Assembly: GCA_012511175.1 (NCBI GenBank)
Contig: JAAZGO010000016.1
Coordinates: forward strand, 1 to 40,034
From: Fastidiosipila sp.
GTDB lineage: Bacteria; Bacillota; Clostridia; Saccharofermentanales; DTU023
Direction: 5' to 3'
DNA: 40,034 nucleotides
A program made the position numbers and the translations under genes. This document shows, piece after piece, positions 17,832 to 33,788 of this stretch; positions within the stretch are counted from its first letter, which is position 1, and every line of letters begins with the position of its first letter. Under the pieces are notes generated by a model, which saw only the letters and a program-made list of their open reading frames with translations, did no database searches and was not told the DNA's origin.

Positions 17832-20414
17832 TTATTCGCTTTCCAGAACCTTTTCTTCTTCTCTTCCAGCGTCCGGCATTCGCCTGCCGACCACCAGATG
17901 TCCCAGGCCGGTGTCAAGATCGATTTCGGCTGTATCCCCTTTGGAAACCGTGCCATCAAGCAGGGCTTCCGAGAAGCGGTCCTCGACTTCAGTCTGAATC
18001 AAGCGGCGGAGCGGGCGGGCTCCATATTGAGGTTCATATCCTTTTTCAGCCAGCCAGTCTTTGGCCCGGCCGGTCACATCGGTCATCAGGCCGATGTCTG
18101 CAATCCGGGCAGACAGGCGGTTGATCATGATGTCAACGATCTTCCGCATGGTCGGACGATCCAGCATCCTGAAGAAGATGATCTCGTCAACCCGATTGAT
18201 AAATTCAGGCGAAAAGGCGCGGTGGAGCTCTTCCATGACCAGATCCCTGGCTTCCTGGTAGGTCTTGCCGCCATAGATCTCTTCTTCCTTGTGATCCGCA
18301 TCTTCTTGATCTTCATGTTCAAAGGCAAAGCCAATCCTCCGGCCCTCGGGGCCCACAAGCAGGCGTGCCCCGATATTGGAGGTCATGATAAGGATGGTGT
18401 TCTTGAAGTCGACGGTCCGGCCCTGGCCATCTGTCAGCCTGCCGTCCTCCAGGATTTGGAGCATGGCATTGAGCACATCAGGGTGGGCTTTTTCGATCTC
18501 GTCAAAAAGGACTACCGAGTAAGGCCTGCGCCGGACTTTTTCCGTCAGCTGGCCGCCTTCGTCGTAACCGACGTAGCCGGGCGGGGCGCCGATCAGCTTG
18601 GACACATCGAATTTTTCCATGTACTCCGACATGTCGATGCGGACCAGGGCATTCTCATTGCCGAACATGGTTTCTGCCAAAGCCTTGGCCAGCTCCGTCT
18701 TTCCAACACCGGTTGTCCCGAGGAAAATGAAGGAACCTGTCGGCCGGAAGGGATCCTTCAGTCCCAGTCTGCCCCGCCGGATGGCCTTGGCCACGGCCGT
18801 GACCGCTTCGTCCTGCCCCAGAACACGTTTTTTCAATTCATCCTCCAGGCGGCGGAGCCGCTCGCTGTCATCCTCAGTCAGGCTCCTGACGGGGATGCTG
18901 GTCCAGCTGGACACAATATCGGCGATCATGTCGGCAGTCAAAACCGGCCAGTCCTCACGGCTGGTGTCCAGGCTGCAATCGTGGAGCTCCTTAAGGCGCT
19001 CCGTCAATTCATCTTCCTGGACCTTGAGATCAGCGGCCCTTTCAAATTCCTCGTCCTTGACGGCTTTTTCCTTTTCCTCGATCACGGCATCAAGTTTCTC
19101 CCGCAGCTGCCGGATCTCATCCGAACCTCCCTCGAGATTGATCCTCAAGCGTGAGGCAGCCTCATCGATCAGGTCGATGGCCTTATCAGGCAAAAACCGG
19201 TCCGTGATGTAGCGGGTTGACAGCTGAACGGCTGCCTCAACCGCCTCGTCCGATATACGGACTCTGTGGTGACACTCATAGTGGGGACGCAGGCCGTACA
19301 AAATCTCAACTGTATCCTCCTCGCCCGGTTCACTGACCATGACGGGCTGGAACCGGCGTTCCAGCGCTGCATCCTTTTCGATGTGCTTGCGGTATTCGTC
19401 CAGAGTGGTCGCCCCAATCACCTGGACCTCGCCCCTGGCCAGCATGGGTTTGAGGATGTTGGAAGCGTCCATGGCACCCTCGGACGCCCCTGCTCCGATA
19501 ATGGTATGGAGCTCATCGATGAAGAGAATGATGTTGCCGGCCTCCACCGCCTCATCGATGCCCTTCTTCAGGCGCTCCTCAAATTCGCCCCTGTATTTCG
19601 ATCCGGCCAGCATACCGCTGAGATCGAGCGAAATAAGGCGTTTGCCCCGCAGGAGGTCGGGCACTTCATCCGAAACGATTTTTTGAGCCAGACCTTCCGT
19701 AATTGCAGTTTTACCAACACCCGGCTCACCGATCAGAACTGGATTGTTCTTGGTCCGGCGGCAGAGAATCTGTTCGATCCGCCGGATCTCCTCCTCCCGA
19801 CCGATGATGGGGTCAAAACGGTCTTCTGCCGCCATCCGGGTCAGGTCGCGGCTGAATTTGTCCAGGTTGGGCGTATCGGAGTCCTTTGTCTCCCGGTCCG
19901 TCCGCACCGATTCGGGACCTCTTCCCTGACCCTGCGGAAACGTTCCCTCCTGGCTGGCGTCCGACAGCCTGCTGTAAAACTGCCTGGGTGATATGCCGAC
20001 TCCCTCCAGGATCCGGACGGCCACACTGTCACCTTCCCGCAAAATCCCCATCAGCAGGTGCTCGGGTTCAATGACGCCGCTTTGCGTCCGTCCTTCTGCC
20101 TCCTTGGCGGCAAGGTTGACAACCAGGCGTGTCCGGGGCGTCATCATGCCGATAATCTGATTGCCGTCAATCTGTTCTGCCTGCTCCGGCGAAACATCGA
20201 CTGGCTGCTTTTGGTTGAGGACAGCCAGATGCCGGTTGATGGTCTGCGCGTCCAGTCCGGCCTGGGCCAGCAGGTCGCTGGCGGTGCCGGCGCGTTCGGC
20301 GATGATGCCTGCAAGCAGGTGCTCCGTTCCGATGTAGCCTGTCTCAAAGGATCGGGCCGTCACCCAGGCCGATCCCAGTGCCTCCCCGGATCTTCTTGAA
20401 AAACGTATCATCAT
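17832..20414 (-). CDS. clpC: ATP-dependent protease unfoldase ClpC
   Basis: This 860-residue Hsp100 AAA+ unfoldase delivers arginine-phosphorylated and adaptor-bound proteins to ClpP. Two Clp_N repeats occupy about residues 1-145. NBD1 has Walker A GEPGVGKT (229-236) and Walker B ILFIDE (297-302). The middle domain includes a UVR-like stretch (about 445-475). NBD2 has Walker A GTTGVGKT (566-573) and Walker B VVLFDE (634-639). The ClpP-binding loop appears as IGF (694-696). The first ATG has GGGGGAT upstream; the next codon is also ATG and could be the real start. It is the last gene of ctsR-mcsA-mcsB-clpC. clpP is not in the window. Confidence 0.96.
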
Positions 20415-20445
20415 TTTTTTATCCCCCGTAAACTAAGATTTCTTG

Positions 20446-21480
20446 CTAAGCTCGTTTTTCCAGCAGCGCCTGCCGGATAAGGGCAGCCCGCGCCTGATCC
20501 CTCTCCCTTTCATCCATAGGTTTACCGGCTCCCTGCTGGATGGCGCCTTCTCCTGTTTCAGTCATCAGTGACTGGATCAGGCCATAGTCCGGCATGCCCT
20601 CAAGTCCCAATTCCCTGCCCAGCCGGACAAGGGAAAGGAGTTTCATGGCTTCCTGGGATGTCATCAGGCGGGCTTGGGTTAGAAGACCCATGGCCCGGCC
20701 GACTTCATCCTCCAAAGCGGCAGGATCACGGTCATAGAGCATCCGCCTGGTTTTCCGCTCTTCCCGGGCCAGGTCAATGACAAGCCGGCCCAGATCGGTC
20801 AGAATGCTTTCTGCCGTGACACCCAGGGTGACCTGGTTGGACAGCTGGATCATATCGGCCCTGGCATCGGTCCCCTCACCTTCCGCCCCCCTCAGGACAA
20901 AACCCGCCTTAGAGAGTTTTTCCGCCAGGGGCCGGATGACCCCGGACCGGATCAGGCCCGGGACATGGAGCATGACAGAAGCCCGCATGCCGGTTCCGGT
21001 ATTGGTCGGGCAAGCAGTCAAGTAACCCAGGCGCTCATTTTTCGCGAAAGGCAGCCGGCTTTCCAGCGAGGCGGCGCATTGGCTGACCGTGTCTGCAGTT
21101 TCGTCCAGGCGGAGCCCCGCGCTGACCGCGTAAAGTCGCAGGTGGTCTTCCTCGTTGACCAGGATGCCCGATGCTTCTCCCGGAAAAAGAAGCAGGGCTT
21201 TGCCTTTCTTGCCAACCAGCATCCCCCGGCTGATGATCCGCCGTTCGGCCAGGGCCAGGGATTCAATGGCCCCCAACCCCTCCAGCTCAACAATGAGTGG
21301 TTTTTCACCCGAAGTCAGGCAGAGGGCCCGGAAGGCTTCAATCACTTTACCCTTGACATAGTCCAGCTCGTCCGCTTTCAGCCGCCAGGGAAAAGGCGTA
21401 TTCGCCAGGTTTCTGGCCAACCTGACGCGGGTGGAGATGACCACATCACTGACAGGACCCTCTTCCAGGTACCAGGCCAT
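20446..21480 (-). CDS. mcsB: Protein arginine kinase McsB
   Basis: This 344-residue phosphagen-kinase-fold enzyme phosphorylates arginines on misfolded proteins, marking them for ClpCP, and on CtsR. It shows STRVRLARN (16-24), NEEDHLR (109-115) and the loop CPTNTGTGMRAS with the conserved Cys157. The C-terminal RDQARA matches the RDxxRA phospho-arginine sensor described for McsB. It overlaps the mcsA stop by one base (TGATG), so the activator and kinase are translationally coupled. clpC follows after 31 bases. Confidence 0.96.
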   Translation of the reverse strand: MAWYLEEGPVSDVVISTRVRLARNLANTPFPWRLKADELDYVKGKVIEAFRALCLTSGEKPLIVELEGLGAIESLALAERRIISRGMLVGKKGKALLLFPGEASGILVNEEDHLRLYAVSAGLRLDETADTVSQCAASLESRLPFAKNERLGYLTACPTNTGTGMRASVMLHVPGLIRSGVIRPLAEKLSKAGFVLRGAEGEGTDARADMIQLSNQVTLGVTAESILTDLGRLVIDLAREERKTRRMLYDRDPAALEDEVGRAMGLLTQARLMTSQEAMKLLSLVRLGRELGLEGMPDYGLIQSLMTETGEGAIQQGAGKPMDERERDQARAALIRQALLEKRA

Positions 21481-21986
21481 CAGTCTTCGCCTTCTTTCTG
21501 CGCTTCATGCGCCCGGATCCGGTCTCTGATTTTGGCAGCTTCTTCATAAGCTTCATCCTCGATGGCCCGGGCGAGTTTTTTTCGCAGATCCGTGACCTCT
21601 GCCGGCAGGTCTTCTTTTTCCATAGGCTCGATGTGACGGGTATGACCCTGTACCCGCCGGAAAACAGGTTCCAGCACCGCGGCAAAAGTGTCGTAGCATT
21701 GCCCGCAGCCCAATAAACCGCTTTCCCTCAACTCGCGCTCAGTTTCTCCGCAGGAGGGACATACCCGCCGCGCTGGCCCCCTGTGCGGGGAGCCCGGGTA
21801 ACTGGGATAACCGAAGAGGGAAGGTCCCGGCAGGATGGAACCGAAGAGATCCTCCCACCAGGAGTCCGCACCTTGTCCGGGAGCCGCCGCACACCGGTCA
21901 CACAGGAATTCCGTCCGCTCCTGGCCATTGACGGCCCGGGTCACCCGGACGGTCGCCAGCCGCTGCCCGCACTTTTGGCACAGCAT
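21480..21986 (-). CDS. mcsA: McsA, zinc-binding activator of McsB
   Basis: This 168-residue protein activates McsB and takes part in the stress response. Cys pairs are at C3/C6, C29/C32, C76/C79 and C94/C97, enough for two zinc sites. A C-terminal UVR domain lies at about residues 131-165 (LRKKLARAIEDEAYEEAAKIRDR in part). The Gly/Pro-rich linker at 36-72 is variable in the family. Only two bases separate it from ctsR, so it is clearly in the same operon. Confidence 0.95.
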   Translation of the reverse strand: MLCQKCGQRLATVRVTRAVNGQERTEFLCDRCAAAPGQGADSWWEDLFGSILPGPSLFGYPSYPGSPHRGPARRVCPSCGETERELRESGLLGCGQCYDTFAAVLEPVFRRVQGHTRHIEPMEKEDLPAEVTDLRKKLARAIEDEAYEEAAKIRDRIRAHEAQKEGED

Positions 21987-21988
21987 GC

Positions 21989-22471
21989 CTATTCCTCCTT
22001 CTGGGCGGCAAGCCCCGTCAGCATCTGCCGGAAAAGGTCGGACCGCACACGGCTGCGCATGGGCAGGCTGATCTGCCTCAAGCTGGCATCCGATAGGGAG
22101 GCTTTCATGAGGAGAAGCATTTTCCTGGGGACCAGCTCCAGCTCCATCAGCTGATTGATCATGACATTGGCCTCATGCTGACTGAGCTGATCGGAGACCG
22201 ACCGGGCCAGATGCATCAGGTATTCGGCTTCCTCGGAATAGGGCACCCGGGTAATCCGGACGTAGCCGGACCCGCCCCTGCGGCTCTCTACCATGTAACC
22301 CTGCCGGTGGCTGAAGCGGGTCGTGATCACGTAGGTGATCTGGGAGGGTGCCACCTGAAGTTCAGAAGCAAACGCGTTGCGGGACAGCTCACAGGAACCG
22401 TCCTGCTCTTCAATTAAATCGAGAATCACTTTTTCGATCATGTCCGTCAAACTGCTCATGCCTGCCGCCAT
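21989..22471 (-). CDS. ctsR: Transcriptional repressor CtsR
   Basis: This 160-residue dimeric repressor of class III heat-shock genes (clp genes and its own operon) is itself controlled by heat and by McsB. The N-terminal winged helix includes APSQITYVITTRF. The glycine-rich wing ESRRGGSGYVRI contains the thermosensing tetraglycine-like region, here RGGSGY instead of RGGGGY. The C-terminal dimerisation domain ends near residue 155. The start is either the ATG at 22471 or the in-frame ATG at 22459 (MSSL), which resembles other CtsR N-termini; neither has a good Shine-Dalgarno. Confidence 0.94.
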   Translation of the reverse strand: MAAGMSSLTDMIEKVILDLIEEQDGSCELSRNAFASELQVAPSQITYVITTRFSHRQGYMVESRRGGSGYVRITRVPYSEEAEYLMHLARSVSDQLSQHEANVMINQLMELELVPRKMLLLMKASLSDASLRQISLPMRSRVRSDLFRQMLTGLAAQKEE

Positions 22472-31452: not shown

Positions 31453-31473
31453 TGCATCATCGCAGGGCTGGTG

Positions 31474-31590: not shown

Positions 31591-32994
31591 GTGAAAGCAA
31601 AACGGTCACCGCGGTTTATCGCGACCATCCTGATCGTGCGGGCAACACGCAGGGTCATGCGTCTGCTCCATTTAAAAGCCACCCATTTCCCCGGTCAGCT
31701 GGCCAGCCGGCTTTGTCCCGATTTTTTATCGCGGATTGAAAAACCGGGCCACATCATTGCCATCACCGGAACCAACGGCAAAACGACGGTAGCCAATCTG
31801 GTTGCCGACATGGCCGAGAAACTGGGCCTCTCTTTCGCCCACAATGCCTATGGCAGCAACATCGAGGAGGGGATCATCACTGCCCTGCTCGACGCGGCGA
31901 CCCTGACAGGGCGAAAAAAACGACCACTGGCCATTTTGGAAATCGATGAGCGGGTTACGCGAATCGTCTTCAAGAGTCTGCGTCCCGACTATCTGCTTGT
32001 CACCAATCTTTTCCGTGAATCCTATCTGCGGAACGCTCACGGGGAGTTCATTTTCGATATTTTAAATGAGAGCATTCCCCCTTCAACCCAACTCATCCTG
32101 AACGCCGATGACCTCCTGTCCCAGCAGCTGGGAGAAAGCCGCCGCCACACCTCTTTCGGCATCGCGCGCCTGCCGGGTGAAGAGGCCTTTAACACCAGTC
32201 TGATCCGCGACGTCAATCTTTGTCCGCGATGCCAGGGTCCTTTGACTGACGACTTCATCCGCTACCATCATATCGGCCGATCCCGCTGCGAGGCCTGTGG
32301 CTGGAGATCCATGATCCCCGACTTTGAAGCGACCGCCGTGTCCTCCGGAACTCTCACCCTCTCGAACACCTTGGATAACAGCGAGGAGACCTATCCCTTC
32401 AAGGGGGAAAATATCCTGGAAGCTTACAATCTTTTGGCAGCCATTGCTCTGTTCAGAACCCTGGGTTATGGCCGGGAGATCATCGCCCGGATCTTGGGGG
32501 AAGTCGCCATCGGCGTAACAAGGAAAGAAATCATCCAGGCTGGGGACAAAAGGATCTACAGAATGCTGGCAAAAGGCAAGAACCCCATCGCTGTCAGCCG
32601 TGTCCTGGATGCCCTGTGCAGTCTGCCTGGCCGCAAACAATTCATCCTCCTGGTCGACACCAGCGTCAAGAAAATGTCAGAGGAGGACAACACGGCCTGG
32701 CTTTATGATACGGATCTGTCAATCCTTGCGGCGGAGGAGGTCACCCGCATAATTGTCGGCGGCCGCCGCGCGGAGGACATCCGGACCGCCCTGCTTTTTG
32801 CGGGCCTGCCGCCTGAAAAAATCAGGACCTGCCGGGACAAAAGTGAAACAGGATCCCTAGTGAAGCATTCGCAAGGTCCGGAAACACTCGCCATCCTTTA
32901 TGAACTATATTCAGAGCCGGTTTCGCGCAAGGTGGCGGCCTCCTTGCAGCGGGTATTCTCGAAGGCGGCTGCGGAAAGCGGGGTCAAGCCATGA
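31591..32994 (+). CDS. murT: Lipid II isoglutaminyl synthase subunit MurT
   Basis: This 467-residue Mur-ligase-like subunit, with GatD, amidates the D-Glu of lipid II. The ATP-binding loop GTNGKTT (60-66), the Glu-rich EIDE (117-120) and the MurT zinc ribbon Cys (211, 214, 233, 236) are present. The C-terminal DUF1727 domain has AWLYD with Asp373 at the expected catalytic Asp. Just before it, the usual NxxxADGxD-type segment is replaced by DTSVKKMSEED, which is atypical. The GTG start at 31591 is chosen because longer in-frame starts would overlap the rpoB promoter and the preceding residues do not look conserved. It overlaps gatD by four bases. Confidence 0.88.
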   Translation: MKAKRSPRFIATILIVRATRRVMRLLHLKATHFPGQLASRLCPDFLSRIEKPGHIIAITGTNGKTTVANLVADMAEKLGLSFAHNAYGSNIEEGIITALLDAATLTGRKKRPLAILEIDERVTRIVFKSLRPDYLLVTNLFRESYLRNAHGEFIFDILNESIPPSTQLILNADDLLSQQLGESRRHTSFGIARLPGEEAFNTSLIRDVNLCPRCQGPLTDDFIRYHHIGRSRCEACGWRSMIPDFEATAVSSGTLTLSNTLDNSEETYPFKGENILEAYNLLAAIALFRTLGYGREIIARILGEVAIGVTRKEIIQAGDKRIYRMLAKGKNPIAVSRVLDALCSLPGRKQFILLVDTSVKKMSEEDNTAWLYDTDLSILAAEEVTRIIVGGRRAEDIRTALLFAGLPPEKIRTCRDKSETGSLVKHSQGPETLAILYELYSEPVSRKVAASLQRVFSKAAAESGVKP

Positions 32995-33788
32995 AGGTTG
33001 AAATCATTTATGGGGAACTGGCCAACCTGCTAGGAGAACACGGCAGCCAGAAGCTACTTGCACAAACCTTTGGCGAAGACCACTTGATCCGGACCTTCTA
33101 TCCCGCCCTGCCGGCCTTTTTGAAGGGCGATGTCGATCTGGTTTACATGGGCCCTATGACAGAGCGGACACAAAGGCTGGTTCTTGAGCTGTGGCAGGGG
33201 CAGGCAAGCCGATTCCAGAAGGCTATTGAGGGAGGTACCGTCTTCTTCTTTGCGGGCAACGCGCTCGATCTGTTGGGGCGGACCATCCGCTATGAGGGAA
33301 AAGAGACGATTGAGGCACTGGGCCTATACCCCTTCGACACCTTCTGCCGCCGCTACGACCGGTACAACGAGGTGGTCTGTGCCAGCTTCAAGGAAATGCC
33401 GGTCATGGGTTTCCGCTCTCAGTTTACAACCCATACCGGCGACGCCGGCGCCTATCCCTTTCTCCAGGTCAATTATGGCTCAGGCATGAATCCTGACACC
33501 CCTTCCGAGGGCATACATGACAGAAATTTCTTCGCGACCGACCTCCTGGGACCCTTCCTGATCCTCAACCCTTCCTTTACCCGCTGGCTTTTCAATCTGA
33601 CAGGGTTCCGGGGTCCGCTTCCTTTCGAAGAGGAGATGACGGCCGCGGCGGCCATCAGGCTGACTGATTTTTTGGAAACCTACTCCCCGAAAAGCAAGGC
33701 GTACAAACTTATTCATGCCTATTTGCGAAAAGAGAACCAAATCCTGAATCCATCCGCCCGGCTCAAAAACGAGAACACGCCCCGTTAA
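32991..33788 (+). CDS. gatD: GatD-like protein without glutaminase active site
   Basis: This 265-residue protein has the GatD/CobB-type class I glutamine amidotransferase fold. In GatD the glutaminase supplies ammonia to MurT for lipid II amidation. The fold is recognisable from VYMGPMTERTQR (near 51-62), AGNALDLLG (88-96) and FATDLLGP (181-188). In functional GatD the middle segment is ICGGYQxLG, with the nucleophilic Cys; here that position is Gly89, with Ala88 before it. The catalytic His of the usual YLHGP is Leu186. The only cysteines are C119 and C130. It starts on ATGA overlapping the murT stop, so the pair is coupled. The protein is probably unable to use glutamine. Confidence 0.83.
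   Translation: MKVEIIYGELANLLGEHGSQKLLAQTFGEDHLIRTFYPALPAFLKGDVDLVYMGPMTERTQRLVLELWQGQASRFQKAIEGGTVFFFAGNALDLLGRTIRYEGKETIEALGLYPFDTFCRRYDRYNEVVCASFKEMPVMGFRSQFTTHTGDAGAYPFLQVNYGSGMNPDTPSEGIHDRNFFATDLLGPFLILNPSFTRWLFNLTGFRGPLPFEEEMTAAAAIRLTDFLETYSPKSKAYKLIHAYLRKENQILNPSARLKNENTPR

Follow-up and report, generated by a model that had tools for sequence, protein, structure and literature searches.

The window, a stretch of 40,034 nucleotides from a Fastidiosipila sp. contig, carries a two-gene locus that encodes a MurT-like ligase subunit and a GatD-like subunit (Table 1). In several Gram-positive pathogens, MurT/GatD is an essential enzyme, and its nitrogen donor is assumed to be glutamine. The murT reading frame opens at 31471, and the GTG start is placed on the basis of protein length and a purine-rich stretch upstream. 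The coupling of the two genes by a start/stop overlap, described in the initial annotation, is present. Elsewhere, the window contains an ordinary ctsR-mcsA-mcsB-clpC-type cluster (17832–22471, minus strand).

Table 1 Features of the murT–gatD-like locus, in window coordinates.
Feature	Position	Strand	Remark
murT-like lipid II ligase subunit, 467 aa from GTG start	31591..32994	+	Pfam MurT_C, PDB match
MurT P-loop GTNGKT, intact	31768..31785	+	
MurT E-I-D-E, intact: Mg/ATP Glu108 and acceptor-carboxylate Asp110/Glu111	31939..31950	+	
MurT active-site/channel loop RESYLRNAH, remodelled from canonical RDQ(L/M)DR(Y/F)GE, new conserved His	32014..32040	+	
MurT Cys4 zinc ribbon, intact	32221..32298	+	four Cys
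MurT Asn for triad Asp349	32689..32691	+	codon AAC
ATGA start/stop overlap, gatD-like ATG with murT stop TGA	32991..32994	+	couples both genes
GatD-like subunit, predicted glutaminase-dead	32991..33788	+	265 aa ORF
Pro55 for oxyanion-hole Gly60 (S. aureus numbering)	33153..33155	+	
Glu58 (Asp in canonical GatD), conserved to at least 98% in clades N and E	33162..33164	+	
Gly89-Asn90 for nucleophile Cys94 and oxyanion-hole Gly95 (S. aureus numbering)	33255..33260	+	alignment
Arg124, the retained glutamine-capturing Arg128	33360..33362	+	
Leu186 for catalytic His189	33546..33548	+	codon CTG

The MurT-like protein is recognised by the Pfam MurT_C model (61.8 bits; cut-off 25), and its best PDB match is S. 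aureus MurT (E=4e-41). The P-loop, the Mg/ATP residue Glu108, Asn267, and the acceptor residues Asn85 and Asp110/Glu111 are all present. In S. pneumoniae, mutation of the P-loop Lys, N85, or the D/E pair abolishes activity. With its ATP, Mg, and acceptor-activating residues intact, the protein is predicted to remain a ligase, with lipid II amidation as its predicted reaction.

The glutaminase site of the GatD-like protein is lost. In alignments made with phmmer and MAFFT, Gly89 (codon GGC, 33255–33257) falls on the nucleophile of S. aureus GatD (Cys94; Cys107 in S. pneumoniae), and Leu186 (CTG, 33546–33548) falls on the catalytic His (His189; His206 in S. pneumoniae). The elbow and the loop align without gaps and no Cys lies close by, so that a replacement Cys or His nearby was rejected. 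The initial annotation had pointed out both substitutions and the lack of another Cys near the elbow, correctly, but it understated the loss: Pro55 and Asn90 replace the oxyanion-hole residues Gly60 and Gly95, and MurT carries Asn for the triad residue Asp349. In S. aureus, this Asp is the third triad residue of GatD and is lent by MurT (PMC6113224). There, the MurT substitution D349N severely reduces activity, and the GatD substitutions C94S and C94G abolish it (PMC6113224); in S. pneumoniae, Asp-to-Ala substitution at the equivalent position only lowers activity (PMC6085368).

The GatD-like protein scores below the cut-offs of the curated models GATase_3 (23.3 bits; cut-off 27) and NF045636 (36.1 bits; cut-off 400). 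An AlphaFold2 model of the single GatD-like chain, with 26 natural relatives as input, predicts a confident GatD fold (mean pLDDT 91.8). With Foldseek and VIA-align 2, all top PDB matches are crystal structures of GatD (Z 23–25, about 24), and the next fold is HisH (15.7). The model thus agrees with the earlier suggestion that the fold is otherwise intact. Judged from sequence and model, the protein has the fold of GatD but not the active site of a glutaminase; glutaminase activity is predicted to be absent, and annotation as a glutamine amidotransferase would be inappropriate.

The GGC codon of Gly89 is one base away from a Cys codon, as would suit a sequencing error or a pseudogene. However, none of the same-genus homologues from other assemblies that cover both sites has either residue (Gly or Ser for the Cys; Leu for the His), which excludes a sequencing error, and the changes are common to many genera. 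In addition, close pairs of glutaminase-dead GatD sequences mostly give dN/dS values of 0.06–0.18 where estimable, similar to those of canonical GatD (0.04–0.23), and the predicted fold is confident. Error and decay are therefore rejected, with a negligible chance of either; the view that the gene is kept rather than decaying is well supported, also by the large size of the family.

A GatD-like match is found in 205 of the 392 genomes of the class (Clostridia). Among 153 distinct GatD sequences, most of them accompanied by MurT, Cys, His, and Asp are all present in 67 and all missing in 57, and 12 have lost Cys and His and keep only the MurT Asp. Trees of concatenated MurT and GatD were built with FastTree and IQ-TREE after masking of the trait columns, and are unrooted. 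In the Clostridia tree of 111 pairs, the canonical type and nine pairs with isolated losses lie on one side of a supported branch (FastTree 98; IQ-TREE SH-aLRT 97), and the other 68 pairs fall outside it, in the three clades of the glutaminase-dead subfamily. Clade N (SH-aLRT 99), which contains the pair of the window, has a TGNA elbow and MurT Asn349; clade E (97) has a TGNS elbow and mostly Glu349; clade F (100) has a TGT elbow, TNGKS in MurT, and Asn349. With the root unplaced, one to three ancient losses of the glutaminase are possible. By sequence, the glutaminase-dead group also includes L040, from a cultured organism, Oscillospiraceae bacterium MH27-2. The subfamily is real and conserved, and is undescribed in the literature searched, in which we found no publication on a glutaminase-dead GatD/MurT.

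In clade N, MurT residues K59, T60, N85, E108, D110, E111, N267, K315, and N316 and the four zinc Cys are conserved at 98–100%, and clades E and F come close to this. The ATP/Mg/acceptor residues (Lys59, Thr60, Asn85, Glu108, Asp110, Glu111, Asn267) and the zinc ribbon are conserved at 86–100% in clades E and F, with Ser for Thr60 in clade F. The loop corresponding to S. aureus residues 129–145 changes from the canonical motif to R(D/E)(S/Q)xxRN(A/G)(H/D) in the glutaminase-dead clades. In S. pneumoniae MurT, the equivalent loop borders the ammonia passage, and mutation of either Asp136 or Arg140 in it lowers activity; both positions are largely kept in the glutaminase-dead clades, as an acidic residue and an Arg. 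A His near the loop end is conserved in clades N and E and is mostly Asp in clade F. According to the S. pneumoniae paper, a His of this loop coordinates Mg in Mur ligases and is absent from MurT; the new His may handle ammonium or Mg. On the GatD side, Glu58 and Asn90 are new conserved residues at the old pocket in clades N and E, and the glutamine-capturing Arg is kept. The new pocket residues, the retained Arg, and the remodelled channel loop would all suit a ligase that moves another amine (a diamine, for instance cadaverine or putrescine, or an amino acid) to the D-Glu α-carboxyl, the old glutamine pocket binding or gating the donor. Negativicutes do bear polyamines on the D-Glu α-carboxylate (PMC10628300); no papers on a cadaverine transferase gene were found in the literature searched.

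The distribution of the pairs bears on their function. A second, canonical murT–gatD pair, the search for which had been proposed initially, was not found in the own genome, where family searches return no second murT or GATase_3 gene. Among the 31 genomes with N- or E-clade pairs, none contains a canonical pair, against 12.7 overlaps expected if phylogeny is ignored. In genus g8, the canonical pair lies beside gyrB-recF-dnaN in five genomes, N or E pairs lie elsewhere in seven genomes (six of them sharing flanking genes), and no genome has both types. This pattern reads as the glutaminase-dead pair replacing the canonical pair, and it speaks against transfer of another amine by the N and E pairs. 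F pairs, on the other hand, are found together with a canonical pair in G351, and alongside N-type pairs in G304 and G381; the presence of clade F alongside the canonical pair would fit another amine.

The complex might also no longer make a peptidoglycan amide and instead be regulatory, or act as another ATP-dependent ligase on a different carboxylate. That the sequences diverge from both curated models (MurT and GatD) is in line with such a change, which is possibly true of clade F, a paralogue in some genomes. However, Asn85 and the D/E pair of MurT, which serve the acceptor carboxylate and Mg, show little or no variation, and the N/E and canonical pairs are mutually exclusive, making this explanation improbable. 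The new job for the pair that the initial annotation had considered becomes less likely in view of the replacement of the canonical pair.

The adjacency of gatD and murT is kept across genera, and no conserved third gene is found beside the pair across 26 loci; therefore, the pair appears self-contained. In particular, no conserved neighbour would make an alternative amine donor.

In all eight genomes of the window's genus, including the own genome (G000), glutamine synthetase is undetected in family searches, as is a class II glutamine amidotransferase domain. Most of the genomes are MAGs, and gene absence is read from family searches only, with positive controls in 14 of 14 genomes. Besides the GatD-like protein, the own genome has two class I GATase domains (PF00117), those of CTP synthase and of a PuuD-like C26 peptidase; PF07685 gives no further match, and no orphan glutaminase was found in family searches. 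The CTP synthase (PyrG; L197:1468-3105, minus strand, contig C19 of G000) reads GIGLGMQ for GICLGMQ, the nucleophile Cys being replaced by Gly. The same replacement is found in 17 of 17 genomes examined in family f1 (own genome and 16 relatives; L217–L232), and readable PyrG from other families keep the Cys. Five Cys-less PyrG relatives also lack the His and Glu, which are kept in many members. Like the GatD of the window, this CTP synthase has Gly for the glutaminase nucleophile in a conserved enzyme, and its use of ammonia is predicted. A Glucosamine_iso (NagB-type) match is present in seven of the eight genus genomes, and the corresponding gene could make glucosamine-6-phosphate from ammonia.

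The gene content leaves little room for a borrowed nitrogen supply, in which the pair would take ammonia from another cellular glutaminase or amidotransferase docked, perhaps, on the retained GatD fold. The only other PF00117 proteins of the own genome are the Cys-less PyrG and the C26 peptidase, PF07685 adds nothing, neither a class II GATase nor glutamine synthetase is detected, and the pair has no conserved neighbour. We regard such a supply as very unlikely, and the earlier idea that the pair borrows another amidotransferase finds no support. The glutamine-free genus also fits ammonia directly, and transfer of another amine, which is the main rival explanation, is in our view unlikely, if less so than a change to another ligase role.

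Across 62 genomes, 15 of 41 with a glutaminase-dead pair lack glutamine synthetase, against 0 of 21 with a canonical pair (p 0.001, phylogeny ignored); by genus, the counts are 8 of 25 and 0 of 16 (p 0.014, phylogeny ignored). Other genomes with a glutaminase-dead pair (for example G398, G143, G332, and G045) retain glutamine synthetase and a Cys-intact PyrG, so that the change in GatD either came before the loss of glutamine or arose independently of it, and that loss alone does not account for it. Within the same family, G014 has a Cys-less PyrG and a canonical-looking GatD, and G017 has a second PyrG with intact Cys (L242) besides the Cys-less copy. The canonical-looking GatD/CobQ-type protein of G014 (L107) adjoins a cobalamin adenosyltransferase-like gene. 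We give even chances to the broader proposal that the genus of the window, and with it a large part of the family, have abandoned glutamine as a biosynthetic nitrogen donor and make CTP and the cell-wall amide from free ammonia, MurT/GatD being a branch of a wider ammonia-using subfamily in Clostridia.

For the pair itself, we favour, with some reserve, a glutamine-independent lipid II isoglutaminyl synthase that is fed by ammonia and has the inactive GatD as an obligate structural subunit. MurT would bind ATP and lipid II and activate the D-Glu α-carboxylate as canonical MurT does, and the nitrogen would come from cellular ammonia rather than from glutamine split by GatD. GatD, without nucleophile, base, oxyanion hole, and MurT-lent acid, would be retained as the structural or conformational subunit of MurT. 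We infer D-isoglutamine as the product and ammonia as the donor; the remodelled loop with its new His may help to bind or deprotonate ammonium. There is a precedent in S. aureus: in vitro, at pH 8.5, the complex of MurT and GatD-C94G can use NH3 to amidate lipid II, for which both subunits are required (PMC3266927). Accordingly, the initial statement that known pairs need the glutaminase stands for glutamine-dependent amidation and fails for NH3 at that pH. The S. aureus mutant complex does not use ammonia at pH 7.5 (PMC3266927), and an extra adaptation must therefore be assumed for the pair of the window.

Several results favour the ammonia-fed synthase: the loss of the triad and oxyanion hole across both proteins, the intact ligase residues, purifying selection, the canonical pair being replaced, and a genus with no detectable glutamine synthetase or class II GATase and a Cys-less PyrG. 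Against it stand the glutaminase-dead-pair genomes that keep glutamine synthetase, the co-occurrence of F pairs with canonical or N-type pairs, and the cases of G014 and G017. Because of this co-occurrence, clade F, at least, may do something else. Use of free ammonia, one of the options raised initially, is the best supported of them, given the C94G precedent and the nitrogen metabolism of the genus.

Compared with the known MurT/GatD synthases (S. aureus SA1708/SA1707; S. pneumoniae 6fqb; S. pyogenes 9sq9), the pair is likewise a two-gene system of a zinc-ribbon Mur ligase and a GatD-fold subunit, with the ATP, Mg, and acceptor residues and the fold in common. It differs in that Cys94, His189, the oxyanion glycines, and MurT Asp349 are all replaced, in the remodelled 129–145 loop, and in scores far below those of the curated GatD and MurT models. 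The S. aureus C94G laboratory mutant has the identical Cys-to-Gly change, and its ligation of NH3 requires GatD; the pair of the window is, in addition, without the His, the oxyanion hole, and the MurT Asp, and carries further conserved changes. By analogy, the class I glutaminase domain of human carbamoyl phosphate synthetase I (CPS1) is retained although it is dead, and the enzyme uses free ammonia (PMC4655335). CPS1 is an unrelated synthetase of another pathway in a single polypeptide; the trait in common is a domain retained under selection after loss of the catalytic Cys, and the use of free ammonia by the pair of the window is predicted from its genomic context.

A natural and widespread form without a glutaminase site would separate the structural role of GatD from catalysis, and offers, ready to use, a test case for the acceptance of ammonia by MurT. 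It is also a warning for annotation, as a MurT/GatD operon need not mean glutamine-dependent amidation. The joint loss of glutamine synthetase, class II amidotransferases, and the PyrG Cys would make the lineage a natural model of glutamine-free nitrogen metabolism.

Clade F comprises L110, L112, L113, L117, L119, L120, L126, L128, L162, L166, L170, and L191–L193, has the MurT loop KDQVQRNGDP, and may have a job of its own. Assignment of the F-clade family to C. difficile by cell-wall-binding repeats was rejected; PF04122 was not found in seven genomes, and the published C. difficile peptidoglycan is therefore not applicable.

Inside the canonical side of the tree, there are several later, isolated losses of Cys or His, with too few events for an informative independent-pairs test of C94 loss against H189 loss. 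Apparently separate nucleophile losses (to Ser, Gly, or Ala) are seen in L111, L118, L148, L149, L155, L158, L165, and L169, in lineages where the pair is otherwise canonical or no murT is adjacent. In G017 (contig C45:49292-52293; L103 and L130), the murT–gatD pair is duplicated in tandem: one copy has His at the elbow, and the other has the elbow Cys (TCTAMD) and Met for the His. A relative (L022) resembles the copy with the elbow Cys (TCNAMD). In two genomes of the window's family, G019 (L106/L196) and G025 (L116), a single reading frame encodes a MurT–GatD fusion (822 and 737 aa, respectively), with canonical Cys, His, and Asp.
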